A DNA stretch of 50,118 nt from Deltaproteobacteria bacterium (GTDB taxonomy: Bacteria > Desulfobacterota > Desulfobacteria > Desulfobacterales > UBA11574), in contig JAFDHQ010000003.1 in NCBI GenBank assembly GCA_019308685.1, forward strand, positions 1-50,118, in the 5' to 3' direction. Positions 19,748-38,361 of the stretch are shown in pieces (positions within the stretch are counted from its first letter, which is position 1; every line of letters begins with the position of its first letter). The position numbers and the translations under genes are program-made. Under the pieces are notes generated by a model. That model did not search any database, was not told the DNA's origin, and was given only the letters and a program-made list of their open reading frames with translations.

Positions 19748-22700
19748 ATGTCCATCAGGGTAGGTTTTTATGTCTGCCATTGCGGGATCAATATCGCAGG
19801 CAAAGTTCGGGTTGAGGAGGTGGCCGACTTTGCCCGAAAGCTGAAAAATGTGGTGATCGCCCGGGACTATAAGTTTATGTGTTCGGACCCGGGCCAGGAG
19901 ATGATTGAAAAGGACATTAGGGAATTTAACCTTAACCGGGTGGTGGTAGCCTCTTGCTCACCCAGACTGCATGAAAAGACCTTTCAAAGTGCCTGCCGCC
20001 GGGCCGCTCTTAATCCTTATTTTTTCCAGATGGCCTCTGTTCGCGAACAAGTGTCCTGGGTCACCGAGGATGAAGATGAAGCCACCCAGAAAGCGAAAAC
20101 ACTGGCGGCGGCGGCGATCAACCGGGTCAATTACCATGAGAGACTTGATGATCGTGAGGCAGTGGTACATCCCGATATCATGGTCGTGGGTGGCGGTATT
20201 TCGGGCATGCAGGCTGCTTTAGACATCGGCAATGCCGGGCATAAAGTATATCTGGTGGAAAAATCGACGACCATTGGCGGGCACATGCTTCAATTCGATA
20301 AGACATTTCCCACGCTCGACTGTGCCGCCTGTATCGGAACCCCAAAAATGGTTGACGTGGTCCAAAATCCAAACATCGAGTTGATCTCATACAGCGAAGT
20401 AACGGAGGTGTCGGGATTCATTGGTAACTACACCGTCAAAATCCGTCGTAAGCCGCGATATGTAAAGGAAGGTGTCTGTACGGGATGTGGGGAATGTGCG
20501 AATGTCTGTCCGGTGTCAGTCCCGAGTGAGTGGGATGAGGGGCTGGGTCATCGCGCAGCCATTTATAGGGCATTCCCACAGGCCGTACCCATTACCTTCT
20601 GTATAGATAAAAAAGATCGGGCCCCTTGTGCGATCGCTTGTCCGGCGGGCATCAATGTCCAGGGCTATGTGCAACTCATCAGCCAAGGCAAGTACCGGGA
20701 AGCAACCCGGTTAATTATGGAGCGACTGCCCCTTCCGGGGGTACTTGGACGAGTCTGCCCGCATCCTTGTGAATCTCAATGCCGGAGGTTGGAGGTGGAT
20801 GAGGCCATTGCCATCAGGGATTTAAAGCGCTTTGCCGCAGATCATACAAACCTGACAGAACTCGAACCGCCGGAAATTCAGGAATGTTCGGAGAAGGTAG
20901 CAGTGGTCGGCTCAGGTCCGTCCGGGCTGACCGTAGCATACTACCTGCGGTTAAAGGGCTATCAGGTAACTATTTATGAGGCGCTTGACGTCTTGGGCGG
21001 AATGCTTCGGGTGGGAATTCCGGATTTTCGTCTCCCTTCACAAGTTCTTGACCATGAGATCGATTATATTCTCCGCCTGGGTGTTAAGACGCGAACCGGA
21101 GTCCGGTTTGGATCTGATCTTACACTTAACGATTTGAAACAAGAGGGTTTCTCCGCTGTGTTTCTCGGAATCGGAGCTCATGATTCCCTGGATATGCACA
21201 TTCCCGGTGAGAAGGACACGCAAGGAGTTATGGATGCAGTTCGTTTTTTAAGGCAAGTAAATTTGGGGGATAAAACCTGCCCCGGCAGACAAGTTGTCGT
21301 GGTTGGCGGCGGAAATGTGGCCATTGATACGGCACGGGCGGCAAAGCGCCTGGGCGCCCGGGAAGTTACTGTGGTTTATCGCCGCTCGGAACGGGAAATG
21401 CCCGCCTATGCTGAAGAGATTGAAGGTGCTAAAAATGAAGAAATTCGTTTTTTCTTTCTCACCGCTCCGGTCAAAATTCTTGAAAAACAGGGTAAGGTTG
21501 ACGGCTTTGAATGTATCCGTACCAAACTGGGGCCACCGGATGCCAGCGGGCGCCGTCGCCCATTGCCGGTGGCAGGTTCCGAATTCGTGATTCCCTGTGA
21601 TGCGGTGATTCCGGCCATTGGCCAGAAAACCCATGCGCCCTGGGCCGACCGGGAGCCCGACCTTATATGGTCTCCGAGAAACACCTTGAAGGTAAACCTC
21701 CGGACAATGCAAACCAGTATTCCCTACGTGTTTGCCGGAGGCGATGCGGTCATGGGTCCGGCAACGGTGATAGAGGCCGTAGCTGCCGGTCACAAGGCTG
21801 TTGAGGCAATCCATCGCTATATTAACGGCGAAGATCTGGACCTTTATGCAAAACAGGTTGAAGTCCGGGAACAACCGGGCCGCGATTGGCAGGAAATTCC
21901 GGATGGGCTTTACCGGAAATCCCGGGCACATCCACAGCATCTAGACCCAAAGCTGAGTGCAACGTCCTTTGACGAAGTGGACCTTGGTCTTTCAGAAAGC
22001 GAGGCACAACGAGAAGCCAGGCGCTGCCTGAATTGCGGTCTCTGCTGTGAATGTATGGAATGCGTCCGGGTTTGTGAGGCAAATGCCATAGACCACCGTA
22101 TGAAGGAAAAAGAATTAGAGGTAAAGGTTGGGAGCATTATCATCGCCACCGGATACGACACCATAGATCCCACGCCCATGAAGCAGTTTGGATACGGCAA
22201 ATACCCAAATGTCTTTACCGCCCTTGAATTCGAGCGTCTCAGCAATGCGACCGGTCCCACCGGCGGTGAGATCCTTATCAGAGACCAAAACGGGGAACTC
22301 ACCCGAATTCCAAAAAGGGTGGCCATTCTCCACTGCATCGGCAGCCGGGATGTAAATTATCATGAATACTGCTCCCGGGTTTGCTGTATGTACGCCCTCA
22401 AGTATGCCCATCTGATCCATGAAAAAGTGGGCCACGATGCTCAAATTTTTAATTTTTACATTGACATGCGTTGCTTTGGCAAAGGTTATGAAGAGTTTTA
22501 CGAAAGGTGTCAGCGAGAAGGAACCCATTTCATCAGGGGCAAGGTGGCGGAGATTACCGATCAGGCGATCAAACCCGAAGAGCACGGCAAACTCATCACC
22601 ATTGCAGAAGACACTCTCCTGGGACGGAGCATACGGATTCCGGTGGATATGGTAATCCTGTGCAATGCGATTCAGGCCCGAAGCGATGCTCAAGAGGTTG

Positions 22701-23158
22701 GCAGGATTTTTGGAGTCAACCAGGGTGCAGACGGTTTTTTTCTGGAGGAACACCCCAAACTGGGTCCTCTGGACACTGCTACGGACGGAGTTTTTCTGGC
22801 CGGGGTCTGTCAGGGCCCCAAAGATATTCCGGATTCGGTTTGCCAGGCATCCGGCGCGGCTGTCAAAGCCCTGGCATTAGCTACTCGGGGCAAAGTGGAG
22901 ATTGCTCCGATCATATCGTGGATCGACCCGGACGTGTGCGCGGGATGCCAGACCTGTATTGATCTTTGTCCATATTCGGCTATAGAATATAACGTTCGCA
23001 AAGGCATCTCGGTGGTCAATGAGGCACTTTGCAAAGGGTGTGGGAGTTGTGCCGGATTTTGTCCCAGCGGTGCGGCACAGGTCAAACATTTCAATGAAAA
23101 ACAGATTTTTGCAGAACTCGAAGGAATCATTGATTCATTGAATTCAGTAGGAATTTAA
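19748..23158 (+). CDS. hdrA: HdrA-GltD/NfnB fusion flavoprotein
   Basis: 1136 residues. An N-terminal HdrA linker domain (CHCGINIAG) precedes the FAD motif GGGISG (about 146) and DCAAC. A [4Fe-4S] motif (CTGCGECANVCP, about 243) is followed by a GltD/NfnB-like NAD(P)H-FAD domain (about 292-700: PCAIACPAGINVQGY, GSGPSG, GGGNVAIDTARA), a CLNCGLCCECMEC cluster, the HdrA core (CIGSRD, CSRVCCMYA) and two C-terminal ferredoxin motifs (CAGCQTCIDLCP, CKGCGSCAGFCP). Unlike the 1113-5588 protein it has one HdrA half and no second FAD half. The GltD part suggests NAD(P)H as one bifurcation partner. It heads the plus-strand block with mvhD, frhB-like, hdrA-REC, hdrC and hdrB. Confidence 0.9.
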   Translation: MSIRVGFYVCHCGINIAGKVRVEEVADFARKLKNVVIARDYKFMCSDPGQEMIEKDIREFNLNRVVVASCSPRLHEKTFQSACRRAALNPYFFQMASVREQVSWVTEDEDEATQKAKTLAAAAINRVNYHERLDDREAVVHPDIMVVGGGISGMQAALDIGNAGHKVYLVEKSTTIGGHMLQFDKTFPTLDCAACIGTPKMVDVVQNPNIELISYSEVTEVSGFIGNYTVKIRRKPRYVKEGVCTGCGECANVCPVSVPSEWDEGLGHRAAIYRAFPQAVPITFCIDKKDRAPCAIACPAGINVQGYVQLISQGKYREATRLIMERLPLPGVLGRVCPHPCESQCRRLEVDEAIAIRDLKRFAADHTNLTELEPPEIQECSEKVAVVGSGPSGLTVAYYLRLKGYQVTIYEALDVLGGMLRVGIPDFRLPSQVLDHEIDYILRLGVKTRTGVRFGSDLTLNDLKQEGFSAVFLGIGAHDSLDMHIPGEKDTQGVMDAVRFLRQVNLGDKTCPGRQVVVVGGGNVAIDTARAAKRLGAREVTVVYRRSEREMPAYAEEIEGAKNEEIRFFFLTAPVKILEKQGKVDGFECIRTKLGPPDASGRRRPLPVAGSEFVIPCDAVIPAIGQKTHAPWADREPDLIWSPRNTLKVNLRTMQTSIPYVFAGGDAVMGPATVIEAVAAGHKAVEAIHRYINGEDLDLYAKQVEVREQPGRDWQEIPDGLYRKSRAHPQHLDPKLSATSFDEVDLGLSESEAQREARRCLNCGLCCECMECVRVCEANAIDHRMKEKELEVKVGSIIIATGYDTIDPTPMKQFGYGKYPNVFTALEFERLSNATGPTGGEILIRDQNGELTRIPKRVAILHCIGSRDVNYHEYCSRVCCMYALKYAHLIHEKVGHDAQIFNFYIDMRCFGKGYEEFYERCQREGTHFIRGKVAEITDQAIKPEEHGKLITIAEDTLLGRSIRIPVDMVILCNAIQARSDAQEVGRIFGVNQGADGFFLEEHPKLGPLDTATDGVFLAGVCQGPKDIPDSVCQASGAAVKALALATRGKVEIAPIISWIDPDVCAGCQTCIDLCPYSAIEYNVRKGISVVNEALCKGCGSCAGFCPSGAAQVKHFNEKQIFAELEGIIDSLNSVGI

Positions 23159-23207: not shown

Positions 23208-23351
23208 AGAGACCTTTGAAAAACGTTCAATTTTGTTCAAGTTCAAGGAAGACGAAGATTTTAACCACAGGCATACATTGAGTATGTCGAGGATTAAAAT
23301 CTGAGTCTGACGCAGAAATTGGGCAAAAGGGGACGTTTTGCAAAGGTCTCT
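23208..23351. repeat. Palindromic repeat, family B core with different ends, before mvhD
   Basis: Ends are AGAGACCTTTGAAAAACGT and the complement of ACGTTTTGCAAAGGTCTCT. The core has CAGGCATACATTGAGTATG and TCGAGGATTAAAAT, like 5612-5756 and 38063-38212. Its right end touches the ribosome site of mvhD (TAGGAGGGAG at 23351). It may attenuate or uncouple expression between hdrA and the downstream genes. Confidence 0.65.
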
Positions 23352-23363
23352 AGGAGGGAGATC

Positions 23364-23786
23364 ATGGAAGGTTTTGAACCGACAATCATCGCTTTTGTGT
23401 GTAACTGGTGTACATATACCGCCGCAGATCTGGCCGGAACCTCAAGATTGGGTTATCCCGCCAACGTAAGATTGATTCGGGTGATGTGCACCGGCATGGT
23501 TGACCCCAAATATGTGATCAAGGCCTTTCTTGAAGGGGCCGATGCGGTTCTTGTGAGTGGGTGCCATCCCGGAGATTGCCATTACATTAACGGAAATTAC
23601 AAAGCGAGAAGACGGATCAAGCTTCTCAAAGAAATCCTTCCCCAATTCGGCTTCGACGATGAACGGCTCCGCTTGACCTGGATCGGGGCCAGCGATGGAA
23701 TCCAGTTTGCCGAGACCATTCGTAAAATGGTAACACAGATGAAGATCCTGGGACCCAACGAGGCCAAATTAAAGATTGTAATATAA
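23364..23786 (+). CDS. mvhD: MvhD-type iron-sulfur subunit (Cys form)
   Basis: 140 residues, full length for the family. The motifs are CNWCTYTAADLAG, VRLIRVMCTG, VSGCHPGDCHYINGN and a conserved C-terminal region. All cluster Cys positions are present, so it is the reference for the two UGA-containing paralogues. MvhD hands electrons from an upstream oxidoreductase (hydrogenase, formate dehydrogenase or FrhB-type) to HdrA. ATG at 23364 follows AGGAGGGAGATC; an upstream in-frame start at 23319 lies within the repeat and is less likely. The next gene (frhB-like) starts 41 bases later, implying that these two subunits work together. Confidence 0.93.
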   Translation: MEGFEPTIIAFVCNWCTYTAADLAGTSRLGYPANVRLIRVMCTGMVDPKYVIKAFLEGADAVLVSGCHPGDCHYINGNYKARRRIKLLKEILPQFGFDDERLRLTWIGASDGIQFAETIRKMVTQMKILGPNEAKLKIVI

Positions 23787-23827
23787 CTTTAGTATGTGTC
23801 TATACCCTAATTCGGAGAGATTTTAAG

Positions 23828-24970
23828 GTGAAAACAGCGAAAATCAAAGTAAAAGACGGAGACCTTTTGGCAACTCTGCGAGAGTTTTTTCGATCCATCC
23901 TCCAGTTGGAGGATATCAGTGCGATTCTGGTTCCACAACATCTCCCCATGAAGAATGTGGTAATGCCGACTCTGGTGACCGATCCTGAACAACTCAACGG
24001 CATCGATCCTCTGGCACCGGCGTTTCCCATCAATTCAGCCAAAATTGTTTCCCGGCTCACTCGTAAACCCATGGGACAAAAAGTGGCGGTTGTGTTGCGC
24101 CCCTGTGAGATAAGGGCATTTATCGAATTGGTGAAACTCAAGCAAGGCCGGACTGAAGAAGTGGTTCTGGTGGGAATCGACTGCCTGGGAGCATACAAGA
24201 ACCTCGATTATACTCAGATTGTCGGGGAACAAGAAACAGAATTCACTTCAAGATTTTACCGGAATGTCTTATCCGGGAAAGAAATCGCCGAAAACGGGTT
24301 TGACCTGAACCCGGCCTGCAAAGCATGCGAACACCCTGTTCCCGATGGTGCAGACATTTTAATCGGACTTTTCGGGGTCGATACAAACCACAGCCTGATG
24401 ATCCAGGCCCGGACTTTAAACGGAGAGGACCTCTATAGAAATCTTAATCTTTCACATGCAGAGGAACCACCGGAACGTACGGCGGCCGTTGCATCGCTGA
24501 TCGCTGAAAGAACCGCCTATCGTGATAAAATGTTTGCAGAAACTTCCGAGGTCACCAACAGCGTAGAGAAACTGAACATTTATCTTGCCAACTGCATAAA
24601 CTGTTACAACTGCAGGGTGGCCTGTCCGGTTTGCTATTGCAAAGAATGTGTTTTTGTTACAGATGTTTTTAACCATGAACCGATTCAGTACCTGCGATGG
24701 GCCAATCGCAAGGGTATCATCAAGATGCCCACCGATACCGTGTTTTATCATATTACCCGGCTGGCACACATGAGTACCGCATGTGTCGGGTGCGGACAGT
24801 GTTCCAATGCCTGTCCCAACAACATTCCGGTAATGGAGTTGTTTCGAACCGTTTCATTTCAAACACAAAAAGGGTTCGAATACGAACCGGGGAAGAGTAT
24901 TGAGGATGAACCTCCCTTGTCGGTGTTTCGGGAAGATGAACTCGCCGATGTTGTCGGAATCGGAAAATAG
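23828..24970 (+). CDS. FrhB/FdhB-like flavin and iron-sulfur subunit
   Basis: 380 residues of the coenzyme F420 hydrogenase/dehydrogenase beta-subunit family. The N-terminal part has RPCEIRAFIEL and GIDCLGAY. A Cys cluster (CINCYNCRVACPVCYCKEC, about 258-276) and a ferredoxin motif CVGCGQCSNACP (about 318) follow. Family members bind FAD and oxidise F420H2 or, in formate dehydrogenases, relay electrons. The substrate here is not clear: the partners are mvhD upstream and hdrA-REC 17 bases downstream, so it probably feeds the Hdr complex. No catalytic hydrogenase or formate dehydrogenase subunit is within the window. Confidence 0.85.
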   Translation: MKTAKIKVKDGDLLATLREFFRSILQLEDISAILVPQHLPMKNVVMPTLVTDPEQLNGIDPLAPAFPINSAKIVSRLTRKPMGQKVAVVLRPCEIRAFIELVKLKQGRTEEVVLVGIDCLGAYKNLDYTQIVGEQETEFTSRFYRNVLSGKEIAENGFDLNPACKACEHPVPDGADILIGLFGVDTNHSLMIQARTLNGEDLYRNLNLSHAEEPPERTAAVASLIAERTAYRDKMFAETSEVTNSVEKLNIYLANCINCYNCRVACPVCYCKECVFVTDVFNHEPIQYLRWANRKGIIKMPTDTVFYHITRLAHMSTACVGCGQCSNACPNNIPVMELFRTVSFQTQKGFEYEPGKSIEDEPPLSVFREDELADVVGIGK

Positions 24971-24987
24971 GTTAAGGATAGTTTTTT

Positions 24988-27900
24988 ATGAAGAAAAAAA
25001 TCGGTAAAGCATTGGTGGTGGGATCCGGAATCAGCGGTATCCGTGCGGCCCTGGATCTGGCGGAATTTGGCTATGGTGTCATTCTCATCGACCGGTTACC
25101 GCACATTGGAGGAATTTTAAGCCAGCTCGATTATCAGTTTCCGACCGACCGCTGCGGTATGTGCAAAATGCTTCCTCTGGTGGATCGAGATGCATCGTCC
25201 CAGTATTGCCTTCGCAAAGGACTTTTTCACGAAAACATCCAAATCCGTCTTTCCACAGAACTTACCTCTGTGGAAGGCGAACCAGGCCATTTTCAGGTGA
25301 CATTGCGTCAGAAGCCGAGACTTGTTGATCCTGTTCTGTGTGTGGGATGCGGTGAGTGTGTGAAAGTCTGCCCGGTGGAAGTTCCGGACTCTTTCCACGC
25401 CGGTATGACCACTCGAAAGGCCATCTACCTTCCGGTTCCACATGCTATTCCCAATCCGTACGTAATAGATATGGAGGCCTGTACCCGGTGCGGGGACTGT
25501 GAAGCGGTTTGTCCCACGGACGCCATCAAGGTCTCCGAGCACATACACAGAGACTTTCGGGTCCTGGTGGTGGACGACGAATTGATCGTCCGCGATTCAA
25601 TCAAGGAATGGCTGGAAGATGAAGGTTTTACCGTCAATGTAGCTGCATCCGGCCCGGAAGCCCTGGACATTCTGTCAAAACAATCCTATCAACTCATGCT
25701 CACGGATATTAAAATGCCGGGAATGGGCGGTGTGGAACTCCTTCAAAAAGCCAAGGAGGACTTTCCCGATATCTGCGTGATTATGATGACCGCCTATGCC
25801 ACGGTAGAAACTGCTGTGGAGGCCATGAAGATCGGAGCATCCGACTATCTCATAAAACCCTTTGAACCCGATAATCTTATTCAAATGGTTTTTCAAAAAT
25901 ACCAGGAGCACGAAGCCGCCAGTGAAGCACCCATAGAAGTCGGGGCTCTGGTTCTTTGTGGAGGTACAGCCTATTTTAATCCTTCCGAAGGCGAGAACAC
26001 CTTCGGGTATGGTGTTTATCCGAATGTGGTAACGAGTCTGGATTTTGAAAGAATTTTAAGTAGCGCCGCCCTGCAACAGGGTCGTCTGGTCCGGCCTTCC
26101 GACAGCAAACCCCTTCGCAAGGTGGCCTGGTTCCAGTGTGTGGGATCCAGAGACATTAAGATCGACGCCGACTTTTGCTCCTTTGTCTGCTGTATGCACG
26201 CAATTAAAGAAGCCCTGGTGGCCAAGGAAAGGGCTGAAGATGAACTGGAAGCGGCTATTTTTTACATGGATATGCGCACGTTTGGAAAGTCGTTTCAGCG
26301 CTACCGCTGCCAGGCGGAAACTAAGCACGGCGTTCGATTTGAAAGGGGGCGTGTCCATTCCATAATCCAGGATGAAGCCAGTGGAGATCTTATTGTCGGT
26401 CATGTAGATTATACCGGAACCCATAAAGAAGAGCACTTCGATATGGTTGTACTCTCCGTGGGCCAACGGCCGGCGCCAGGCACGGCTGAGCTGGCTGAAA
26501 TGGTTGGAATCTCTCTCAATCAGTGGGGATTCTGTAAGGCCGAACCTTTTTCAGAGACGCTGACCAGTCAGGAAGGAATCCTGTTGGGAGGTTCCTTTTC
26601 AGGTCTCAAGGACATCAATGATTCTGTAATCCAGGCTTCTGCTGCTGCTTTGGCTGCATCCCTTGTGATTCATACCACCGGTGGCAGCCTTCTTCTGGAA
26701 CCTAAATCCCATGAGCCTTTTCTCGACATTTCACAAGAACCGCCCAGAGTTATGGTGCTTGTCTGTACCTGCGGCGACACCCTTTCCAAGCTTTTCGATC
26801 CGCAGCAACTTGCCCGGCGCCTTAAGACTGATCCGGGTGTGGACCGGGTTTTCTTTCTTGAACAGACCTGTACCGCTGCGGGCTGGGAAAACCTTGTTGA
26901 ATTGGTGGAAAAACACAAACCCAACCGTATTCTGATCGGGGCCTGCATTCCCTATCTGTACTCGCGAAAAACCAGGGAACTGGGACGACGTGTGGGTTTG
27001 GTGCCCGGCCTCATTCATGTGGTCAATTTAAGGCTCATGGATCAACTGTCAAAACTCAAGGATGAAACTCCGTCAGCAGATGAAATAACAGCAATTATCC
27101 ATGAGCTATCGTCTATTTTGGGAATGGGTCTTGCCAGACTTAAATGGGCTGACCCTACTCCTGCGCCCAGGGTGAAGATTTTTCAGCAGGCTCTGGTGGT
27201 GGGCGGGGGAATCGCCGGAATGACCGCCGCCCTTGCCATCGCAGATCACGGCTTTCAAGTAGATCTGGTGGAAAAAGAAGAGATGTTGGGGGGTAATCTT
27301 ACTTGGTTGGAGCGAGATCTGGAAGGAAACATAACAGAGATTATTTTGGAGAAAACACGGCATAATTTGGAAAAACATCCCTTGATCCGGGTCCACACCC
27401 GAAGCCGGGTGCTCGGCTCCTATGGTCAGGTGGGGCGTTTTTATACCACTATTGAGGACAAAGCAAAAGGGACTTTCACCCTGGAACACGGCGTGACCAT
27501 TCTTGCAACTGGAGGAATGGAAGCGACAACCACCTCATATAACTACGACAAAAGCGAGGCCATTATCACCCAAAAGGAGCTGGAGCAAAAAATAAATGAC
27601 AATAAACTCCATCCGAGCCAACTCGAATCAGTGGTCATGATTCAGTGTGTGGATTCCAGAGAGGAGCCAAGGAATTACTGCAGCCGAATATGCTGTGATA
27701 CCTCTTTAAAAGATGCTCTATGTCTCAAGAGGCAAAATCCTGATATTGACATCTACATTTTTTATCGGGACATTATGGCCTATGGATTTGTCGAGTCCTA
27801 TTACACCCAAGCCCGCAAGGCAGGTGTGATCTTTATCCCCTATGATGTGGCTGAAAAACCCCGGGTAACGGTCACGGACGGATCTATTCAGGTAACCGCC

Positions 27901-28428: not shown

Positions 28429-28559
28429 AGGGCTTTGGATTGAAAATTGAGGATTGAAGATTGTCGATTTATGGAATCGCTTTGCTCTGGCTTTTTTAAT
28501 ACATTTGATAGAATACCTTCAATCATCAATGGAAAATCATCAATTAAAAAGGGGGGCAA

Positions 28560-29141
28560 ATGAACCCTTTGGAAAAATTAGAAAGCGAACAAAAATCTGA
28601 AACTGCACCTGCTCTGGTTATTGATTCACTGGCATCCATCCGGGATATGGTCAGCGCCTGCATCCAGTGCGGTACGTGTACGGGTTCTTGTCCCAATGCC
28701 TTTGCCATGGATCTCACTCCCCGTCAGCTGTGGTACAATGTCCTTAGAGGAGAAAAAGAAACAATTTTTCATTCAAAGACCTTCTCACTATGTTCCGTCT
28801 GCTATTACTGTACACTACGATGCCCACGGGGTCTTCCGCTTACCGAGGCGATGAGTGCACTCAAGCAGATAGCCGCAAAGGAGAATCTGGCGCCCTATAA
28901 GAAGAGCACCCGTTTTTACAAAAGTTTTTTGGAGAGCGTATATCGTCATGGCCGGGTCAGGGAGATGGAGTTGATGACACTCTATTTTATTTCCATGAAA
29001 AACCCCTTTCTGCCCCTTCAGTTTGCGCCCTTGGGAATAAAACTCATGGGCAAAGGAAAGATTTCTTTCGAGATTCCTTCAAAAGGAAACGGTGCGTTAA
29101 AAGCGATCTTTCGTAAGGTGGAAGAGTTAGAGCAGAATTAA
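28560..29141 (+). CDS. hdrC: Heterodisulfide reductase subunit C-like
   Basis: 193 residues with two ferredoxin motifs (CIQCGTCTGSCPNA at about 37 and CSVCYYCTLRCPRG at about 76), the first distinct from that of the 18.2 kb copy, then a helical tail. It moves electrons from HdrA to HdrB. The start follows AAAAAGGGGGGCAA. It lies 131 bases after hdrA-REC and 78 before hdrB, in the order hdrA-hdrC-hdrB, the reverse of the minus-strand operon. Confidence 0.92.
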   Translation: MNPLEKLESEQKSETAPALVIDSLASIRDMVSACIQCGTCTGSCPNAFAMDLTPRQLWYNVLRGEKETIFHSKTFSLCSVCYYCTLRCPRGLPLTEAMSALKQIAAKENLAPYKKSTRFYKSFLESVYRHGRVREMELMTLYFISMKNPFLPLQFAPLGIKLMGKGKISFEIPSKGNGALKAIFRKVEELEQN

Positions 29142-29182
29142 TATAATAATTTTCGCCAAGTTGAGCAGCGAAGCCGCGTTCT

Positions 29183-29205
29183 ATAAAATCGTAATACGAT
29201 TTTAT
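29183..29205. promoter_or_regulatory. Perfect palindrome just upstream of hdrB
   Basis: ATAAAATCGTA and TACGATTTTAT flank a single A (realistic RNA loop TAATA). It lies 5 bases before the GGAAGG ribosome site of hdrB, so it could be an operator or limit access to that site. Confidence 0.45.
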
Positions 29206-29219
29206 TGTGGAAGGCAAAT

Positions 29220-30089
29220 ATGAAATACCTATATTATCCGGGATGTTCTCTTGAGGGAACGGCGTTAGAATACAACTCCTCCACCAGAACCTTCATGCAG
29301 GAACTGGGAGCAGAACTCATTGAACTTGAAGACTGGACCTGTTGCGGTGCCAGTGCTGCCGAGGCCACAAGCCACCTTCTTTCTCTGGCGCTTCCGGCAC
29401 TCGTTCTCGCAAAGGCCGAGAACATGGATGGAGTTAAGGAAATTCTTGTTCCGTGCAGCGCGTGCTATCTAAACCTGAAAAAGGTCGAGGAAAAAATACG
29501 AAAGGATCGGGAGCTTCTTGACCAAATCAACATCATATTAGCCGAAGAAAAGCTTAACCTGCGCGGTCAAATGAAGGTCCGGCATCTCCTTGACGTGGTG
29601 GCAAATGACGTGGGTTCTAAAAAGATTTTTGCCCGCGTGAAAAAGCCGTTAACCGATCTTATCATCGCTCCCTATTATGGCTGCCAGTGCCTTCGCCCGT
29701 ACTCTATTTTTGACGATCCCGAAGATCCCTGCTCTATGGAAGGGATTATTAAAGCCTCGGGGGCAAATATCCATCAATGGAATATGGGGGGAAGATGCTG
29801 TGGCGCATCTCATATGACCACCAAGCCAGAGGTAGCCCTGGAACTCGTGGCCGCTATATTGAAAATGGCCCGGGGAGCAGATGCCATTGTTACGGTTTGT
29901 CCCATGTGCCAGATGAACCTGGAGGCATACCAGAAAAAAATATCAGGGATGTGCAAAGAGGATCTGAGCATGCCCATCCTTTATCTTCCTCAGTTTCTGG
30001 GGCTGGCCCTTGGCCTCTCGGAACAGGATTTGCGATTGGACATGAATCTATCCTTTACCAAAGCCTTCCGAAACAAAGTACTGTCATGA
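29220..30089 (+). CDS. hdrB: Heterodisulfide reductase subunit B-like
   Basis: 289 residues with two CCG domains: YPGCSLEG, WTCCGASAAE and CSACYLN in the first; YYGCQCLRP, RCCGASHMT and CPMCQMN in the second. These bind the two non-cubane [4Fe-4S] clusters of the disulfide-cleaving site. ATG at 29220 follows GTGGAAGGCAA at normal spacing; a TTG at 29205 would lie inside the palindrome. Its stop overlaps an ATG (ATGA) that opens a 36-codon frame. Confidence 0.92.
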   Translation: MKYLYYPGCSLEGTALEYNSSTRTFMQELGAELIELEDWTCCGASAAEATSHLLSLALPALVLAKAENMDGVKEILVPCSACYLNLKKVEEKIRKDRELLDQINIILAEEKLNLRGQMKVRHLLDVVANDVGSKKIFARVKKPLTDLIIAPYYGCQCLRPYSIFDDPEDPCSMEGIIKASGANIHQWNMGGRCCGASHMTTKPEVALELVAAILKMARGADAIVTVCPMCQMNLEAYQKKISGMCKEDLSMPILYLPQFLGLALGLSEQDLRLDMNLSFTKAFRNKVLS

Positions 30090-30196
30090 ACTTACAAATC
30101 AAACCTCCCCTTTTCTTTGAAACCTTCTGGCTTGAAGAGGAAAGGCCTGACGTTACACGGATGCTCGTCGGGAAATGGGTAGCCGGTTTATACTGA
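30086..30196 (+). CDS. Small 36-residue frame coupled to hdrB
   Basis: The ATG overlaps the hdrB stop as ATGA, which is how coupled genes are joined. The product has no recognised family; it is mostly polar with FFETFWLEEERPD and VGKWVAGLY. It overlaps the 3' end of the convergent Usp-REC-Usp gene by 44 bases, which weakens the case. It could be a chance frame. Confidence 0.25.
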   Translation: MNLQIKPPLFFETFWLEEERPDVTRMLVGKWVAGLY

Positions 30197-31472
30197 TGGT
30201 TGGACATGCCGCGGAAAGGGCAACCCGAAGGGCATTTGAACCGAGCAAAGCTTTTTCCGGATCAATCTCTTTGGAATGATGGGCCATAATGATTAAGTCG
30301 GCATTCCTCCACCTGGCGAATTTGAGGATCTCGACATATGGCCTCCCCTCCCATGATTCAAAAGAATATTCTACAACTCCTTCTAATTCCGAGCCATATT
30401 TGTTTTTCATTCTTTCCTTGGCGTCATTGATACTGTTTTCTATATTCGCTTGATCTATCATCAAAACATTCTCATCATGGATAACAGGCACCACGTGAAA
30501 GAGGTGGAGTTTGGCCTGGTATCGGCGGGTCATCCTGGAGGCAAAATCAAAGGCATGTTGAGCCCGTTCAGAAAAGTCCGTAGCCAGGACAATATTAGAA
30601 AACGTCACCTTTACCGATCGAAGAGCTTCAAAATCCTGGTATACCTGAAAGACCTTATCCACAAGGATCTCAGGGTCAAATGGTTTGAGGAGATAGTCAA
30701 GGGCTCCAATCTTCAAGGCTTCTATGGCCGTTTCTACGGTGGCGTAGGCGGTCATCATGATTACGGTAAGATCGGGAAAGGATTTATGGGCCCTTTTAAG
30801 GAGTTCAACACCGTCCATTCCCGGCATTTTGATATCCGTAAGCATCAGGTGATACGGTTGGGTCGACAGTTTATCCAGAGCCTCCGGACCGGATGCCGCC
30901 ATATCCACGGTATAGCCCTCATCTTCAAGCCATTCTTTGATTGAATCGCGAACGACGAGTTCATCGTCCACCACCAGAATTCGAAAATCCCGGCGCTCAC
31001 CAACAGCATCCTTGGTCCAGATCTTTGGAACCTGCTTGGGAACGATCATCACGGGACAGCGTGCCCGTTGGCTCACTTTTTGGAGGCTGCTGCCGGCCAT
31101 CCCCCATCTTGTCGGCAGATCTTCATCGGTTTCTTTTTCATGGGAACCCATGACAATCAGGTCAACGACTTTATTTCTGGCAAAACGCAAGATTTCGCTA
31201 TGAGGCATTCCTGCAACAACTTCGATGGTATAATTTTGAACCCCAAATTTTTCGATCTTTTCTTGATAGTAATGAGCTATTTCTTTTTTTGTTTCCTCTA
31301 CTTTGCCGGAAGGCAAAAGATGTCTCATTCCTCCCCATCCATTTGAGTCTATGCCGTAGGCGTGGAAAATATACAATTCGGCATTGCCTTGCTTGGCCAG
31401 AGCAAAAGCCATATCCGCAGCACGTTTACTGGCTTCTGTGGGAGATGCAGCGAAAAGAACTTTTTTAAACAT
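30153..31472 (-). CDS. Usp-REC-Usp signalling protein
   Basis: 439 residues: a universal-stress domain (about 1-150: VLFAASPTEASKRAA, VVDLIVMGSHEKE, CPVMIVP), a receiver domain (about 165-285: VVDDE, LTDIKMPGMDG, MMTAYATV, LKPFDP) and a second Usp domain (about 290-439: NIVLATDFSERAQHAF, NADLIIMAHHS). Usp domains usually bind ATP or nucleotides and form dimers; the REC adds a phosphorylation switch. No DNA-binding output is present. The REC is about 75% identical (my manual count) to the one inside HdrA at 24988. The kinase gene upstream is the likely partner. AAGGAGG precedes the start. Confidence 0.9.
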   Translation of the reverse strand: MFKKVLFAASPTEASKRAADMAFALAKQGNAELYIFHAYGIDSNGWGGMRHLLPSGKVEETKKEIAHYYQEKIEKFGVQNYTIEVVAGMPHSEILRFARNKVVDLIVMGSHEKETDEDLPTRWGMAGSSLQKVSQRARCPVMIVPKQVPKIWTKDAVGERRDFRILVVDDELVVRDSIKEWLEDEGYTVDMAASGPEALDKLSTQPYHLMLTDIKMPGMDGVELLKRAHKSFPDLTVIMMTAYATVETAIEALKIGALDYLLKPFDPEILVDKVFQVYQDFEALRSVKVTFSNIVLATDFSERAQHAFDFASRMTRRYQAKLHLFHVVPVIHDENVLMIDQANIENSINDAKERMKNKYGSELEGVVEYSFESWEGRPYVEILKFARWRNADLIIMAHHSKEIDPEKALLGSNALRVALSAACPTISINRLPISRRASV

Positions 31473-31563
31473 AGTTCCTCCTTGGATTTAGAAACGACTC
31501 AACTCAAAAAATGTGATTCGGGCAACCATTTACATAAATTTAAAACGTTTCTTTTTCTGAGGT

Positions 31564-31600
31564 ATTACTCGAATCTTGCACGAGTCGGAGGCTTTCATAT
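31564..31600. repeat. Short dispersed repeat, family E, copy 1
   Basis: GAATCTTGCACGAGTCGG then AGGCTTTCATAT; the same 37-bp sequence with few changes is at 35772-35808. Its GAATC and GATTC-type arms can form a small hairpin. Both copies lie just upstream of minus-strand genes (Usp-REC-Usp and tmcB). Confidence 0.55.
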
Positions 31601-31640
31601 ATAAGATCCAGTCATTAACCACCGGGTTTGCTTTGAATCC

Positions 31641-33896
31641 CTAAGCTTTTCTGTATTGCCGCTTGGGTTGATCCTCCCTCTTCAGCGACGGAAGACGAAT
31701 CGTAAAAACGGTCCCTTCCCCCAGCTTGCTGTCAACAGTGATAGATCCCTTATAGCGGTCGATGATACCGTAAACCATGGAAAGTCCGAGTCCAAGCCCC
31801 TTCCCTTCTGTTTTTGTGGAATAGAACGGATCAAAAATCTGGTGAATGTCTTCCTCAGCAATACCGCATCCGGTATCTTCTATTTTTATTTCGACCATCT
31901 CCGTTATCGGATCAAATGAACTTACCATGGTCAGGGTGCCGCCATCCGACATGGCGTCAATAGCATTAAAAATGAGATTGATAACGCATTGCTGGGTTTG
32001 ATTAAAGTCCCCCAAAACCTTTGGAATATTCGGATCAAAATCGGTTTTAATCTGGATATTCTGAAGCATGAGTTTGTGCTGGCTGAGCAGAATGCATTTT
32101 TCCAGAAGCTCGTTAATACTCATTTCGCTGAGTTCCAATTCAGATTTGCGTGAGAACGCCAGCAGATTGGAAACGATCTTGGAGCAGCGGCTGGTCTCAC
32201 TCTCAACTAGGGTGAGATGTTTTTGAAACTTTTCTATTCTTTTTTGGTCCAAATCCCCCCTTTTAATGATTTTGAGCATCAGGCGAATATAGTTCAAGAT
32301 TCCTGATAGGGGATTGTTGAGCTCATGGACGACGCTGGCGGACAGCCTGCCCAGAGAAATCATTTTGTGCTCGTGAATCAGTCGGGTTTGATCGGCAAAC
32401 TGCTGTTCCATTCTTCTGATTTCTCTTAAATCCCTGAAAAATCCCACCATGCCGATCTCTTCGTCTTGGTCAAACATAACCGTAGCCGAAAGCTGGACCG
32501 GGATCTTATCACCGGTTTTATTAATCATATATGTTTCAAAAAGAATAAGCCGGTTTTTCCCTCCGTATTCATCGGAAACCAGTTCTTTCCTGACCTCTTC
32601 CAACATCGCCGGCGGGAAAAGATCGTTAAAAGACATTTTCATGATCATTTCATATGCGGAATAACCCAGCAGTTTCTCGGCTTGCTGATTGAAAACGACA
32701 ATGGAACCATCTCTGTCCGAGGCGATGATGGCATCTATGGAACTCTGAATCAGGTTGTGTTCAAACTCAAAGAGTGTTTGGAGCTCTTGTTGCAGGCGCT
32801 TGACCTCGCGCATATCTTTAAAATAGCCTACCGTGGCAACTTCCTGACCTTCTTCATACAGCAATGTTGCGGAGAGCAGAATGGGTACGATCTGCCCATA
32901 CTTATCGACAATTTCCACTTTATAGTTAAGCAAACGGCCGCCCCCCCCGTGTTCAGGCCCGTAAATCATTCTCTTAATTTTTTTAGCCTCGCCCTCTTTG
33001 TAAAACCGGGTAACGTGAATTTTGGAAACTTCCTCCTGGGTGTAACCGAAAACGTTTTCAGCGCCTTTGTTAAAAATGATGATGTTGCCTTTACGGTCAT
33101 TGGCAATGATCGGGTCTATTGAGGTCTGGATAAGGTTGGTTTGAAAGTCATGCGCTTTTTTAAGCTTTCGTTCCATCTCCTTTCTCTGGGTTTGATCCAC
33201 ACAGATCCCTTCATACCCGATAACCTTCCCCTCTCGATCATAGCGGGCGTGGGCGGTTCGCAATACCGAGATCACTCTTCCATCCTTGCGCTTCAAATCA
33301 ACTTCATAGTCAATGACGTGACCGTCTCGTTCAATCAAATCCATGTATTTTCGGCGATCTTCAGGTTTCAGATAAAGGTCTCTGGCGATATCTACCTTAA
33401 GAAACTCCTCTTTGCTCGTGTATCCCAACATCTCCATAAGAGCCTGATTGGCATCAATAAACTTACCTTCCTTGCTGCTTATATGCACACCGACACGCAC
33501 ATGTTCAAACAATTTTTTGTAGTCTTCTATGGAGGCGCGAAGCATTTTTTCGCGCTCTTTTGTCTCTGTGATATCCTGATATATACAAAAATGCGATATG
33601 GTTCCTTTATCGGTTTGCAAAGGTAATTCGAAAATCTCGAAAGTTTTGTCGATGTGCGGAAAGTAGTTTTCCCAACGAAGGGTTTCTCCCTTAAAGACTT
33701 CTTTTGCCCTGCACCAGGAGCAGATATCGTCTTGATTCGCAATCACCTGATAACATTTCTTTCCAATGCCTTCTCCAAAGACGTTAATACTGGCCTTGTT
33801 CATAAATTGTACAGTGTAATCATCCCCGATGATATAAACGCCACACCCCATGGCATCTAAAATTGAAGCAAGCCGTTGGGTCTCTTGATCAATCAT
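31641..33896 (-). CDS. Four-PAS sensor histidine kinase
   Basis: 751 residues with no visible membrane segment. PAS1 (about 5-110) has CYQV then C-x2-C (ICSWC), like the kinase at 13.9 kb. PAS2 (about 125-240), PAS3 (about 250-370) and PAS4 (about 380-495) follow, then a HisKA helix with the phospho-accepting His in SVVHELNNPLSG and a HATPase (DTGCGI, GLGLGLSMVYG). No transcription-factor regulator adjoins it; the Usp-REC-Usp gene follows on the same strand. Because that REC and the HdrA-embedded REC are nearly the same, this kinase may phosphorylate both (inference). AAGGAGAG precedes the start. Confidence 0.9.
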   Translation of the reverse strand: MIDQETQRLASILDAMGCGVYIIGDDYTVQFMNKASINVFGEGIGKKCYQVIANQDDICSWCRAKEVFKGETLRWENYFPHIDKTFEIFELPLQTDKGTISHFCIYQDITETKEREKMLRASIEDYKKLFEHVRVGVHISSKEGKFIDANQALMEMLGYTSKEEFLKVDIARDLYLKPEDRRKYMDLIERDGHVIDYEVDLKRKDGRVISVLRTAHARYDREGKVIGYEGICVDQTQRKEMERKLKKAHDFQTNLIQTSIDPIIANDRKGNIIIFNKGAENVFGYTQEEVSKIHVTRFYKEGEAKKIKRMIYGPEHGGGGRLLNYKVEIVDKYGQIVPILLSATLLYEEGQEVATVGYFKDMREVKRLQQELQTLFEFEHNLIQSSIDAIIASDRDGSIVVFNQQAEKLLGYSAYEMIMKMSFNDLFPPAMLEEVRKELVSDEYGGKNRLILFETYMINKTGDKIPVQLSATVMFDQDEEIGMVGFFRDLREIRRMEQQFADQTRLIHEHKMISLGRLSASVVHELNNPLSGILNYIRLMLKIIKRGDLDQKRIEKFQKHLTLVESETSRCSKIVSNLLAFSRKSELELSEMSINELLEKCILLSQHKLMLQNIQIKTDFDPNIPKVLGDFNQTQQCVINLIFNAIDAMSDGGTLTMVSSFDPITEMVEIKIEDTGCGIAEEDIHQIFDPFYSTKTEGKGLGLGLSMVYGIIDRYKGSITVDSKLGEGTVFTIRLPSLKREDQPKRQYRKA

Positions 33897-33979
33897 GGTA
33901 TGTTTCTCTCCTTGTGGGGTGTCTGAAAATTTTCGTGTTCAATTTTCTTTTCAATCTCTCGTTGGCCCGAGCGGTGCGT

Positions 33980-34366
33980 TTATCTGGGATGACATTCGCT
34001 GCACATGATCGGTCCGGCCTTTTTTTCCTGGTGGCATCCCTTGCATTGCAAATGGTAAATGTTTACAAGGGAAATGGGGTTGTCGCCTTTATTAATGGTA
34101 TGGCATTCCGAACATTCCTGGCCTTCGGACGAATCATATTCAACGAGTTTCCCATCCTCATATACATGATGACACGTATTGCATTCATCAAGCTCTGCCT
34201 GTTCATTGTGCTGATCATGCAGAAACGGAACCCCCGGTCTCATCTTCTTCTCAAATGCGCTGTCTTCAACAGTTGTCACATCTTCCTGTGAATAGCCGGA
34301 CATCACCGCAAATATACAACCCAACAGAATTATTAACGTATATATTATCAAAGTCCTTTTTTCCAT
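33980..34366 (-). CDS. tmcA: Tetraheme cytochrome c3 TmcA
   Basis: 128 residues. An N-terminal signal peptide (LIIYTLIILLGCIFAVMS) exports it to the periplasm. Four CxxCH motifs (CNTCH, CSECH, CKGCH, CSECH) bind four hemes, and the composition is acidic, as in the acidic type II cytochrome c3 of the Tmc complex. It takes electrons from periplasmic cytochrome c3 and hands them to the membrane part. ATG at 34366 is chosen because the signal peptide starts there after ATCGGGGGAATC. It is the last gene of tmcD-C-B-A. Confidence 0.92.
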   Translation of the reverse strand: MEKRTLIIYTLIILLGCIFAVMSGYSQEDVTTVEDSAFEKKMRPGVPFLHDQHNEQAELDECNTCHHVYEDGKLVEYDSSEGQECSECHTINKGDNPISLVNIYHLQCKGCHQEKKAGPIMCSECHPR

Positions 34367-34412
34367 CAAGATTCCCCCGATTTTATGAGCCCGGCCCAAC
34401 TGAATTTACTCT

Positions 34413-35756
34413 TTATTCCGGTTTTTCCATGACTTTGTATATAATATCACCCAGAAAATGTAGTTCCATATCGAGGCCGAAGTGATGATTAATATCTTCA
34501 ATTCCGCCATGACAGTTATGGCAAGGGGCTATTATAACCTTTGCACCCCTGGCCTTTGTCGCAAATAACTGCTCTGCCTTGATCCTGTTCCCTTTAATCC
34601 GTGTCATCTTGTATTGAGGACCGGTGTTTATTACACCGCCTCCGGCACAACAACAATAATTATGTTCCCGATTGGGATGCATCTCGATAAATTCTTCACA
34701 AATGGCATTAACAACATAACGCGCCTTTTCATGAAGCCCTTTTCCCCGGACAATATTGCAGGGATCCTGAAAGGTCACCGGCTTATCATATTTTTTAGTG
34801 ATTTTTATCTTCCCCTCTTTTAATAATTCATAATAGAGTTCCACGGCATGTATAATGGGTATTGGCGGCATCTTCCATGCCAGCCAGCGGTTTCCCACAT
34901 CATATACCGATCGGAATGCATGTCCGCATTCTCCCATTACAATACGCTTGACCTTGAGGCGCATCGCCGTTTCAAAATGTGCCTTTTTTAACCGGCCCAT
35001 CATTTCATAGTCTCCGGTAAACATGCATAGATCGCTGTTGTCCCATCCGGGTGTTGCCGGCATGGTAAAATCAACTCCGGCTACATTCATGATAACCGCA
35101 GCCTGATATATGAGCTGTGCTCGAAATTTCGGTTCAGGAGCAATCACAGAGTAAAGAGTTTCAGCTCCTTCCTTTTCCAGGGGTATTCTTAAAGAAGATA
35201 TTTCATCCTGTGCTTCTTCTTCTTGCCAAAACAGACTGTCAATCCATTCATCTTCCTTTACCCACATCTGGTTTAAGCAGGCGGAATGGCTGTGCGCGGT
35301 ATCCTGTATGTACAGCGGGGTGACCCCCAGCATATGGCAGAGCCTTCGCACAATAGACATTAAGTAAGCAATGTCTATACCAAATGGGCAATACATGGCG
35401 CAGCGTCGGCACAGGTTGCATTCCGTGTATGCAATGCGGGAGGCATTTCTTATAAACTCAGGATCAACGTTACCCTTTTTCTTTAATATTTCCCATATGG
35501 TTTGTTTCACCTTACCCGCAGGAGAATATTTCGGATCGTTATCATGGGAAAGATAATAGTGGCAAGCCTCAGAGCAAAGTCCACAGTGGACACAGGTTTC
35601 AACATAGGCCTTCAGCCGGGCGCCGGTTTCCGACGCCAAAACCTTGTTGATAACCTGCTTGATCTTCTCCGGAGTCAAGCGTGCAATTCCCTTATCAATC
35701 CCCTCATCAACAACTTTATTAATTTCATCTTTTTTATTAATGGCTGGTTCAGCCAT
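34413..35756 (-). CDS. tmcB: Tmc complex cytoplasmic Fe-S subunit TmcB
   Basis: 447 residues. Two N-terminal ferredoxin motifs (CVHCGLCSEACH and CNLCRRCAMYCPFG) and two HdrD-like CCG regions (CGHAFRS and QDPCNIVRG; CCCAGGG and CHNCHGG). This matches TmcB, which is related to HdrD, DsrK and HmcF and faces the cytoplasm. The Tmc complex links the periplasmic cytochrome pool with a cytoplasmic or quinone acceptor. It follows tmcC by 84 bases, in which a family E repeat lies. Confidence 0.92.
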   Translation of the reverse strand: MAEPAINKKDEINKVVDEGIDKGIARLTPEKIKQVINKVLASETGARLKAYVETCVHCGLCSEACHYYLSHDNDPKYSPAGKVKQTIWEILKKKGNVDPEFIRNASRIAYTECNLCRRCAMYCPFGIDIAYLMSIVRRLCHMLGVTPLYIQDTAHSHSACLNQMWVKEDEWIDSLFWQEEEAQDEISSLRIPLEKEGAETLYSVIAPEPKFRAQLIYQAAVIMNVAGVDFTMPATPGWDNSDLCMFTGDYEMMGRLKKAHFETAMRLKVKRIVMGECGHAFRSVYDVGNRWLAWKMPPIPIIHAVELYYELLKEGKIKITKKYDKPVTFQDPCNIVRGKGLHEKARYVVNAICEEFIEMHPNREHNYCCCAGGGVINTGPQYKMTRIKGNRIKAEQLFATKARGAKVIIAPCHNCHGGIEDINHHFGLDMELHFLGDIIYKVMEKPE

Positions 35757-35771
35757 GTTATATTCTCCTTT

Positions 35772-35808
35772 TATTACCTGAATCTTGCACGATTCGGAGG
35801 CTTTTATA
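35772..35808. repeat. Short dispersed repeat, family E, copy 2
   Basis: GAATCTTGCACGATTCGG and AGGCTTTTATAT, matching 31564-31600. Located between tmcC and tmcB, immediately ahead of the tmcB ribosome site on the minus strand. Confidence 0.55.
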
Positions 35809-35840
35809 TTTCATGCAAAATTCAGGGATTAAATTGTTTC

Positions 35841-36500
35841 CTACCAATCCTTTGCATGCCTGACAGCACCGAATTCAGATCCCATGTACCCCCTTGTAAA
35901 GGGGAAAAAAATCATATGTATCAAACGTGTAAAAGGAATTGCCGCCAGCATGGTTTCTCCGGCTATGATGTGGAGAATTCCCATAATTCTAAAACCCGGC
36001 CACTGATGATATGTCCAGAAACCCGTGATAAAGGGTGCAGCAACAATAGCAAGTATTACATAATCAGAAATAGAGGTTAAGTACTTGACCTCCGGCAGAA
36101 CGATTCTTCTCACAAGAAAAAAAATACATGAAGCAATAGCCACTATCGTCAATACATCGGCAGCAGTGTCCGAAATATACCACCAGCTAACCCCCCACGA
36201 TTCTTTCCAGAGAATGATATGTGCGCTAAGAAAAATCGGGATAAAAATAATGCAGATATGAAATGTAAATGTGACGATGGTGAAAAACGGATTTTTCCTC
36301 CATTTTACAGTCCCAAAAGGGGTGATCCAATGCAGGATCGACCGAAGTCCAAATTTGAAACTCATATATTCATATACGAATACATCCTTCTTCCTGGCCA
36401 GCACGGCCATGGAGATCAGCCGGTACAAACACCCCGCAAAAAAGATAATAAAGGAGGCCCAGACCAGCGGGCCGCTAACAAAATTATAGATATCATGCAT
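35841..36500 (-). CDS. tmcC: Tmc complex membrane subunit TmcC
   Basis: 219 residues, hydrophobic, with about five transmembrane helices (for example LVWASFIIFFAGCLYRL and FTFHICIIFIPIFLSAHI). His residues in helices (HICI, HII, LHIIAG, RLIHM) fit heme b ligation as in NarI/DsrM-type cytochromes b. It anchors the Tmc complex. It lies 35 bases downstream of tmcD and upstream of tmcB. Confidence 0.9.
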   Translation of the reverse strand: MHDIYNFVSGPLVWASFIIFFAGCLYRLISMAVLARKKDVFVYEYMSFKFGLRSILHWITPFGTVKWRKNPFFTIVTFTFHICIIFIPIFLSAHIILWKESWGVSWWYISDTAADVLTIVAIASCIFFLVRRIVLPEVKYLTSISDYVILAIVAAPFITGFWTYHQWPGFRIMGILHIIAGETMLAAIPFTRLIHMIFFPFTRGYMGSEFGAVRHAKDW

Positions 36501-36535
36501 GGCTTTTTTCCCTTTTAGCCCGAGAGAGATCCGGG

Positions 36536-37819
36536 TTAGCCGGTAATTTCGGTGACCGTTAAAACCTGTCGAAAATACTTGCCGTCCTCGGAATCGCCCT
36601 CGATTCCTTTTATGAGAATCTTTTTAGAGTCAGGGCTGAAAACAGGATCCCACAGCGCTTCATACGATTTCTTAAGAGATTTGCCATCTATCACGATGGT
36701 ATAACGTCCATTTTTTTCGACTTTTGCAGCGACCCTTCTGCTGTCAGGGCTGAAAACAGGCTGCCAGACCATATTATATGTTTCCCCCCAAGCCCTACCG
36801 TCCACAGCAATGGTATACTTTCCGTCTTCTTTTCCGATGCAGGCAATCCTGCTTCCGTCCGGGCTGAAAACCGCATCAGTAACAAGATCACCAAAGGTGA
36901 GAGACCAGGGGTTACCGTCAACTGCAATGGTCCAGCGACCATATTTGGGTGCCACCACGGCAGCTATTTTTTTTCCGTCCGGACTGTACATATGGTGCCA
37001 GAGTTGATAAAAAGAGCGATCCCAAAACGAGTTGCCGTCTTGGGCAAGAGTCCATTTTCCCGCTATCCTTACCGGCGCAGTAACAGAACCGTTTGCCGGG
37101 CTGAATTGCGGCATCCAAACGGAAGAATATACCTTATCCCAAAGAACTCCGTCCACAGCAATGGTGTAATCATAAAGGGAAGTTCTCACTTCCGCGGCCA
37201 CGTGATCAGAATCATGGGAAAAGGCCAGGCCCCAAACGTTAACGAAATTTGCATCCCATGTCTTTCCGTCCACCACTGCGGAATAACAACCTTCCTGAAA
37301 TTGAAAAATATCCCCTTGTTTAATCGGGATGGTAGGGACGACACCGGCAACTCTTTTCCCATCATGGCTGATGGTGAGATTGCTCAGGTCTGAAAATCTC
37401 GCCTCCCATGATATATCGTTTGTCACGGCAAAGTATTCCATGTCTTTTTGAGCAGCTACGGTGATATTTTTGCCGTCCGCCCCGAATTTGGTATTCCATA
37501 AAAAATCAAAGGTGTTTTCCCAGGCAACGCCATCCACCGACACCGTCCATGCTCCCATATCCGACACCAATGCCGTCAACCGGTTATCAGGCCCAAATTT
37601 TAAATACCATACTTTATCAAACGTACTTTCCCAAAGCGTATCATTTTCACAAACTCTAAATTCCATGTCACCTGTTTTAACCACTGCTACGATACGTTCT
37701 CCGTCCGGGCTGGCATAAGGTTCCTCTACCCCGTCGAACATATTCTTCCACTTACCGGTATCCACAATTAACTTTTTTCCGGTTTCCCAGTCCCAGGTGC
37801 TTAAATTATGCATGACCAT
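36536..37819 (-). CDS. tmcD: Tmc complex protein TmcD, Trp-rich beta-propeller
   Basis: 427 residues made of about eight repeats with the pattern FSPDG..iaa.v..dgkyTIAVDGk.W...y..vW.p, that is WD40/TolB-like blades, very rich in Trp. TmcD of Desulfovibrio is a tryptophan-rich protein of the same complex. No signal peptide is visible. The ATG at 37819 follows AAGGAGC at slightly long spacing; ATG at 37813 is an alternative. It is the first gene of the operon here, whereas in Desulfovibrio vulgaris tmcA is first (known). Confidence 0.88.
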   Translation of the reverse strand: MVMHNLSTWDWETGKKLIVDTGKWKNMFDGVEEPYASPDGERIVAVVKTGDMEFRVCENDTLWESTFDKVWYLKFGPDNRLTALVSDMGAWTVSVDGVAWENTFDFLWNTKFGADGKNITVAAQKDMEYFAVTNDISWEARFSDLSNLTISHDGKRVAGVVPTIPIKQGDIFQFQEGCYSAVVDGKTWDANFVNVWGLAFSHDSDHVAAEVRTSLYDYTIAVDGVLWDKVYSSVWMPQFSPANGSVTAPVRIAGKWTLAQDGNSFWDRSFYQLWHHMYSPDGKKIAAVVAPKYGRWTIAVDGNPWSLTFGDLVTDAVFSPDGSRIACIGKEDGKYTIAVDGRAWGETYNMVWQPVFSPDSRRVAAKVEKNGRYTIVIDGKSLKKSYEALWDPVFSPDSKKILIKGIEGDSEDGKYFRQVLTVTEITG

Positions 37820-38212: not shown

Positions 38213-38361
38213 ATGCATGCGACGCACAGACAGGCGAGGCCAAGCAATTTCTCTTGGCTTTTTAAAAAAAACATTTTTTCTTTAACTTTGATAAAAATTT
38301 TTATATATTTAATTTTGGCTGAATCAGAAGCGGATAGTAAATTATCTCTTGGAGGGTAGCT

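Follow-up and report, generated by a model that had tools for sequence, protein, structure and literature searches.

In a 50,118-nucleotide stretch of a Deltaproteobacteria bacterium contig (JAFDHQ010000003.1; hereafter the window), we identified an HdrA-like subunit with a predicted receiver (REC) domain beside its inserted ferredoxin domain, and a sister copy of the same receiver in a neighboring Usp-REC-Usp protein. On balance, we favor a reading in which a single two-component system acts on both HdrA and Usp-REC-Usp, and in which the HdrA REC would gate ferredoxin-linked electron flow. In sulfate reducers, Hdr complexes contribute to the balance among ferredoxin, NAD(P)H and sulfur carriers; to our knowledge, little is known about the regulation of electron bifurcation. 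If our reading is true, bifurcation would be under direct signal control in a group important in marine carbon and sulfur turnover.

The genes from hdrL to hdrB (19748-30089, + strand) converge on tmcDCBA, the histidine kinase gene (hereafter kinase 31641) and the Usp-REC-Usp gene, all on the - strand (Table 1). TmcB and TmcC score above their NCBIfam equivalog cut-offs (842.7 against 735 and 336.7 against 240 bits). Response regulator, Usp and histidine kinase genes beside tmc have already been reported (PMC5109826). A promoter and terminator scan of 28300-38500 gave no clear excess over shuffled sequence (18 against 16.9 and 17 against 11.7). Elsewhere in the window, two more HdrA/HdrL-type systems without a REC (1113-5150 and 14336-18920, both -) lie beside sigma-54 regulators and a second kinase, 11858.

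Table 1. Features of the window discussed in the text.
Feature	Coordinates	Strand	Remark
HdrL (HdrA/GltD-like fusion)	19748..23158	+	opens the conserved hdrL-mvhD-frhB-hdrA-hdrC-hdrB operon
MvhD/FlpD	23319..23786	+	
FrhB/FdhB-like electron-input subunit	23828..24970	+	
HdrA-like subunit, 1146 aa	24988..28428	+	two fused HdrA halves
HdrA REC insert, aa 190-310	25555..25917	+	D240 phospho-acceptor; D196/D197, T268, K290
HdrC-like	28560..29141	+	
HdrB-like, two CCG domains	29205..30089	+	
Usp-REC-Usp, 439 aa	30153..31472	-	
Usp REC, aa 163-283, between two Usp domains	30624..30986	-	phospho-acceptor D213
Soluble four-PAS histidine kinase, HKa clade	31641..33896	-	HisKA box HELNNP; predicted kinase of both RECs
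tmcDCBA transmembrane electron-transfer complex genes	33980..37819	-	same strand, upstream of the kinase and Usp-REC-Usp

The first half of the HdrA-like ORF is a FAD/thioredoxin-reductase part with an inserted ferredoxin domain and the REC, and the second half comprises an N-terminal HdrA domain, a second flavin domain and a C-terminal ferredoxin. In an alignment to methanogen HdrA, aa 7-182 correspond to residues 145-310 of 5ODC and aa 316-509 to residues 319-511, so that about 133 residues stand in for about 8. PF00072 spans aa 192-301, and by this alignment the predicted receiver lies exactly where the inserted ferredoxin domain rejoins the flavin domain. The 5ODC HdrA fold is matched in four aligned stretches with invariant cluster cysteines. 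The ORF scores under the NCBIfam HdrA equivalog cut-offs (691.5 against 1100 and 539.9 against 1400 bits), and its predicted product is HdrA-like, not an HdrA equivalog. In Hdr complexes, the next electron carrier binds to the inserted ferredoxin domain, which is also the anticipated electron exit, and transfer is gated by conformational change of other parts (PMC12350162).

The subunit resembles HdrA of the HdrABC-Mvh, -Fdh and -Elp complexes (5ODC, 7BKB, 8RVU) in its flavin domain, its inserted ferredoxin domain and its N- and C-terminal Fe-S domains, as well as in its partners MvhD, an FdhB-like protein, HdrB and HdrC. It differs in consisting of two fused halves, the first without the N-terminal domain, and in carrying a REC past the inserted ferredoxin domain. 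Fused halves also occur in ANME HdrA variants and in HdrA/HdrL of Desulfobacterium autotrophicum. Among these proteins, an NfnB-like insert shows that the ferredoxin region tolerates inserts, and a tandem hdrL/hdrA locus VIII comes with hdrB and hdrC; the accessible parts of these sources (PMC9012536, which also gives the HdrA domain layout, and PMC2702500) describe no REC.

In 54 aligned HdrA-RECs, the sample on which residue intactness was scored, conservation of the active-site D, T and K is 95% or higher, and the catalytic residues are near-invariant in A2 as well. Conservation is 0.79 in the HdrA REC and 0.64-0.82 in the surrounding enzyme parts, against 0.44 and 0.42 in the two linkers that flank the REC. 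Because the domain is conserved between variable linkers and keeps its active site, its alpha1 helix (kinase docking) and its alpha4 helix (output face), it looks like a working switch on tethers.

The HdrA REC and the Usp REC both exceed the PF00072 gathering cut-off of 30.2 bits (112 and 115.9) and retain the catalytic acidic pair, the phospho-acceptor Asp, the Thr/Ser and the Lys. An ungapped alignment gives 91 identical residues out of 121, in agreement with the approximate count in the first-pass annotation of this DNA, and 77% nucleotide identity, with the likeness breaking off sharply at either domain edge. Searched against its own genome, the HdrA REC returned 95 matches, the top one after itself being the Usp REC (75%) and the next reaching 54%. 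Over all 1,485 pairs among 55 RECs of the genome, identity averages 31% (sd 7); at 76% the two form the second-closest pair, behind one within hybrid kinases (83%). Rather than falling in distant clades, which the annotation had named as an outcome that would refute its reading, all 54 HdrA-RECs and all 10 Usp-RECs group in a single clade of the REC tree (SH-aLRT 80). The REC is too short for its trees to tell which of the two copies came first (AU p 0.68 and 0.52), and the AU test rejects neither a single clade of Usp-RECs nor a single clade of HdrA-RECs.

The Usp-REC-Usp protein matches PF00582 above cut-off (162.6 bits, two stretches) and PF00072 at aa 165-274. Although this REC had been described as standalone, it lies between two Usp domains, and alignment with REC-less Usp-Usp tandems shows it to be a clean insertion. 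Such tandems, encoded after hdrB in Pseudodesulfovibrio, Desulfomicrobium and other Desulfovibrionales and after tmcA in some tmc operons, align with both Usp domains at ~40-50% identity and differ in having no REC between them. Of 194 genomes of the order, 74 have HdrA-REC, for the most part within this six-gene operon, and it also occurs beyond the order in several other groups of the phylum, whereas full-length Usp-REC-Usp is found in 10 of the 194; presence in such counts is set by thresholds, and the genomes are mostly draft MAGs, in which an absence can be an assembly gap. The named collection holds 14 Usp-REC-Usp loci, all in Desulfobacterales-like MAGs. In four of these loci (L172-L175), one strand carries in succession hdrL-mvhD-frhB-hdrA(REC)-hdrC-hdrB, Usp-REC-Usp, an HKa-type REC-PAS-HK gene and a second kinase. 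Selenocysteine at TGA codons of some Usp-REC-Usp relatives was considered and rejected: the called ORFs end a few residues from the matched end, and the TGAs were therefore read as ordinary stops.

How the two copies arose can be judged from their divergence and spread. Matches at codon positions one, two and three number 101, 109 and 68, each out of 121, and the third-position identity of ~57% is near the 57-68% between HdrA RECs of congeneric species. Because the third positions are only ~57% identical, the split is old; judged by these alignments, the two are old sister copies, and the earlier description of them as the same REC overstates their closeness. A recent duplication or gene conversion keeping the copies alike would agree with the 76% identity within one genome, and in a first tree one f59 Usp-REC did group with the HdrA-REC of its own genome. 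We nevertheless regard this as extremely improbable: besides the between-species level of third-position divergence, Usp-RECs of the genus are 88-94% identical across genomes but only 69-76% identical to the HdrA-RECs of the same genomes, and in the sample compared the synonymous identity of the two RECs is no higher within genomes than between them. Recent conversion was rejected on the third-position divergence and on the greater closeness of Usp-RECs to one another across genomes. The annotation had also suggested that the Usp copy donated the HdrA insert, a very improbable event in our estimation. The genes are neighbors with 76% identical RECs, but HdrA-REC is far more widespread than Usp-REC-Usp, and Desulfovibrionales hdr operons hold a REC-less Usp-Usp at the same operon position while their HdrA already has a (degenerate) REC; we rejected donation on these two grounds. 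The simplest history would be an early entry of the REC into HdrA, its decay in Desulfovibrionales and a later sister copy in the Usp-Usp of some Desulfobacterales, which makes donation by the Usp copy unlikely.

Kinase 31641 exceeds the cut-offs for PF00512 and PF02518, and the four PAS repeats recognized in the first-pass annotation were confirmed, the first being weak and below the Pfam cut-off. It groups with REC-PAS-HK proteins (HKa; SH-aLRT 97; cores ~50-67% identical), whose gene lies just upstream of hdrL in many relatives. The kinase tree reads (11858,(HKc,(31641+HKa))), with starred support, where HKc partners the sigma-54 regulator RRc and 11858 partners RR 10350; the REC tree, (10350,(RRc,(HdrA+Usp))), has a matching order. 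The two RECs have the same kinase-docking helix alpha1, RDSIKEWLEDEG, which differs from those of the 17 other paired regulators listed, and the DHp helix of 31641, HELNNPLSGILNYIRLMLKI, closely resembles its counterpart in HKa but not the one in HKc. NtrC-family sigma-54 regulators with AtoS/ZraS-like kinases (RRc/HKc and RR10350/HK11858) supply the genome's closest RECs (50-54%) and closest kinases (46-47%); HdrA and Usp-REC-Usp differ from these regulators in having a redox enzyme or a Usp pair as output and no ATPase/DNA-binding domain.

Across the 194 genomes, HdrA-REC and HKa occur together in 66, HdrA-REC alone in 8, HKa alone in 11 and neither in 109 (phi 0.79; p 8e-31, a value that ignores tree structure), and with one genome per family the corresponding counts are 29/2/3/37 (p 3e-14, phi 0.86). 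The association of HdrA-REC with two other kinases is lower (phi 0.51 for HKb, 0.48 for HKc). HKa is present in all 10 Usp-REC-Usp genomes of this sample, and seven of the eight genomes with HdrA-REC and no HKa at threshold have HKb. A cultured carrier, Desulfospira joergensenii (L196), has both the operon and an HKa. Eth-SRB2 (L186) keeps HdrA-REC together with the orthologue of 31641 next to hdrB, and Usp-REC-Usp was not found in its genome; HdrA would therefore be the constant partner of the kinase. Mirror distances compared across the whole genome lacked the power to identify the cognate kinase, placing true partners at a median rank of 13 out of 33. Because known kinase-regulator pairs were not recovered, we treat this test as invalid and use only the well-supported local match between the kinase and REC trees.

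Desulfovibrionales provide a natural contrast to this pairing. In their HdrA (L218-L235, for example L226:4915-8472), the identical insertion point holds a REC-like domain, which Pfam still detects in both of the two sequences checked, but nearly all of eight sequences have lost the phospho-acceptor Asp and also the switch Thr. HKa was not found in five Desulfovibrionales with a degenerate REC (L226, L228, L232-L234) or in three f112 genomes with diverged HdrA (36-37% match), where the best matches were 36-39% or absent; in five genomes outside the order with 59-69% identical HdrA-REC, the HKa-like match was 61-66%, one of them partial. As a REC fold without the phospho-acceptor Asp, the Desulfovibrionales insert resembles bacterial pseudo-receivers (PMC12632262), and HdrA differs from these in having intact and degenerate forms at the same place, in the same operon, in two lineages. 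The contrast between an intact receiver with a kinase and a degenerate receiver without one is an unusual aid. The first-pass annotation had raised the possibility that both RECs share a kinase and would then answer 31641. Co-occurrence, the matching trees, the identical alpha1, the gene neighborhood and the absence of HKa where the HdrA REC is degenerate all agree with this, and we infer, with good though indirect support, that kinase 31641 phosphorylates the HdrA REC and the Usp REC.

HKa may not be the sole input, since most relatives have a second pair beside hdrA, a HAMP/PAS kinase (HKb, ~760 aa) and a REC-HATPase protein, encoded after hdrA or hdrB. One example (L096:4916-7204, -) has two CxxCH motifs in its N-terminal sensor, as for c-type haem, and HKb is likely a redox-sensing second kinase of the Hdr operon. 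A genome search did not find HKb in the genus of the window. Given the CxxCH motifs and the lack of HKb in this genus, the signal of HdrA may be redox state, read differently between lineages.

To the observed architecture, insertion points, intact catalytic residues, single REC clade, co-occurrence and gene neighborhood, our model adds a proposed phosphotransfer, an effect on electron flow and a role for the Usp protein. Kinase 31641, with its cytoplasmic PAS sensor, most likely acts on both receivers, phosphorylating HdrA at D240 and Usp-REC-Usp at D213. The HdrA REC would have been inserted long ago where the inserted ferredoxin domain, the anticipated exit of low-potential electrons, meets the flavin domain, and judged from this position it most likely gates ferredoxin-linked electron flow: once phosphorylated, it most likely shifts or shields the inserted ferredoxin domain, controlling the low-potential branch. 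With that domain repositioned by phosphorylation, ferredoxin-linked electron flow through HdrLABC-MvhD-FrhB would be turned up or down with no need for transcription. Some lineages would later have gained a copy of the REC between the two Usp domains of the Usp-Usp protein of the hdr operon, bringing that protein under the same signal; our guess is that Usp-REC-Usp ties this signal to nucleotide or energy status, here together with tmc. The fuller statement, that the kinase directly and reversibly controls bifurcation through the HdrA receiver and the Usp protein through the sister receiver, with a pseudo-receiver and no kinase in Desulfovibrionales, is one we advance more tentatively, as a possibility falling somewhat short of an expectation.

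Other arrangements of the same parts deserve consideration. The real kinase of HdrA-REC could be the HKb/REC-HATPase pair or HKc, with HKa merely a co-travelling neighbor, as the position of HKb immediately behind hdrA or hdrB in the majority of genomes, its CxxCH-bearing sensor and its own co-occurrence with HdrA-REC would suggest. We think this unlikely: the association with HKa is stronger, four genomes (G000, G148, G186 and G021) have no HKb match, HKb lies in a distant clade of the kinase tree, and the REC tree sets HdrA-REC beside RRc, whose kinase HKc stands next to HKa in the kinase tree. Alternatively, the HdrA REC might be a passive scaffold or phosphate sink that leaves catalysis unchanged. 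Desulfovibrionales, by retaining an acceptor-less REC fold in the same place, suggest that the fold alone is tolerated or useful, yet the strong conservation of the switch residues and the alpha4 output face in the intact lineages, and a kinase presence that tracks REC integrity, make passivity a rather unlikely account of the intact forms. Signal flow could also run the other way, with HdrA as a sensor whose redox state alters the REC and in turn acts back on the kinase, and Usp-REC-Usp as the output. The location of the REC at a redox domain and the grouping of the kinase with the tmc and Usp genes in the source genome are in keeping with this, but HKa tracks HdrA-REC in the absence of Usp-REC-Usp, which would leave no obvious output and renders the idea improbable.

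In general, receivers coupled to enzyme outputs are already known. In a search of open papers, we found no description of a REC within HdrA. Our preferred reading, in which HdrA and Usp-REC-Usp share one kinase, places a receiver at the predicted electron exit together with a co-occurring kinase, making post-translational control of bifurcation directly testable. The twin REC further suggests that one kinase can gain a second output when its partner's receiver inserts into a neighboring gene.

Several minor observations concern the same protein families. The first PAS of kinase 31641 contains a cysteine motif, GKKCYQV(...)CSWC, that resembles one in HKb and is possibly a metal or Fe-S redox sensor. 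Short standalone REC proteins of ~116-180 aa, which share 24-31% identity with HdrA-REC, are found repeatedly next to tmc and hdr operons in other genomes, adjoining tmcA in L090, L099 and L119 and lying upstream of hdrL in L098, L110, L114 and others. Finally, a 579-aa ORF (L117:41-1780, -) encodes two RECs followed by a FAD/4Fe-4S part 73% identical to HdrL, and would be either a further case of a receiver joined to an Hdr-type protein or the product of gene truncation.
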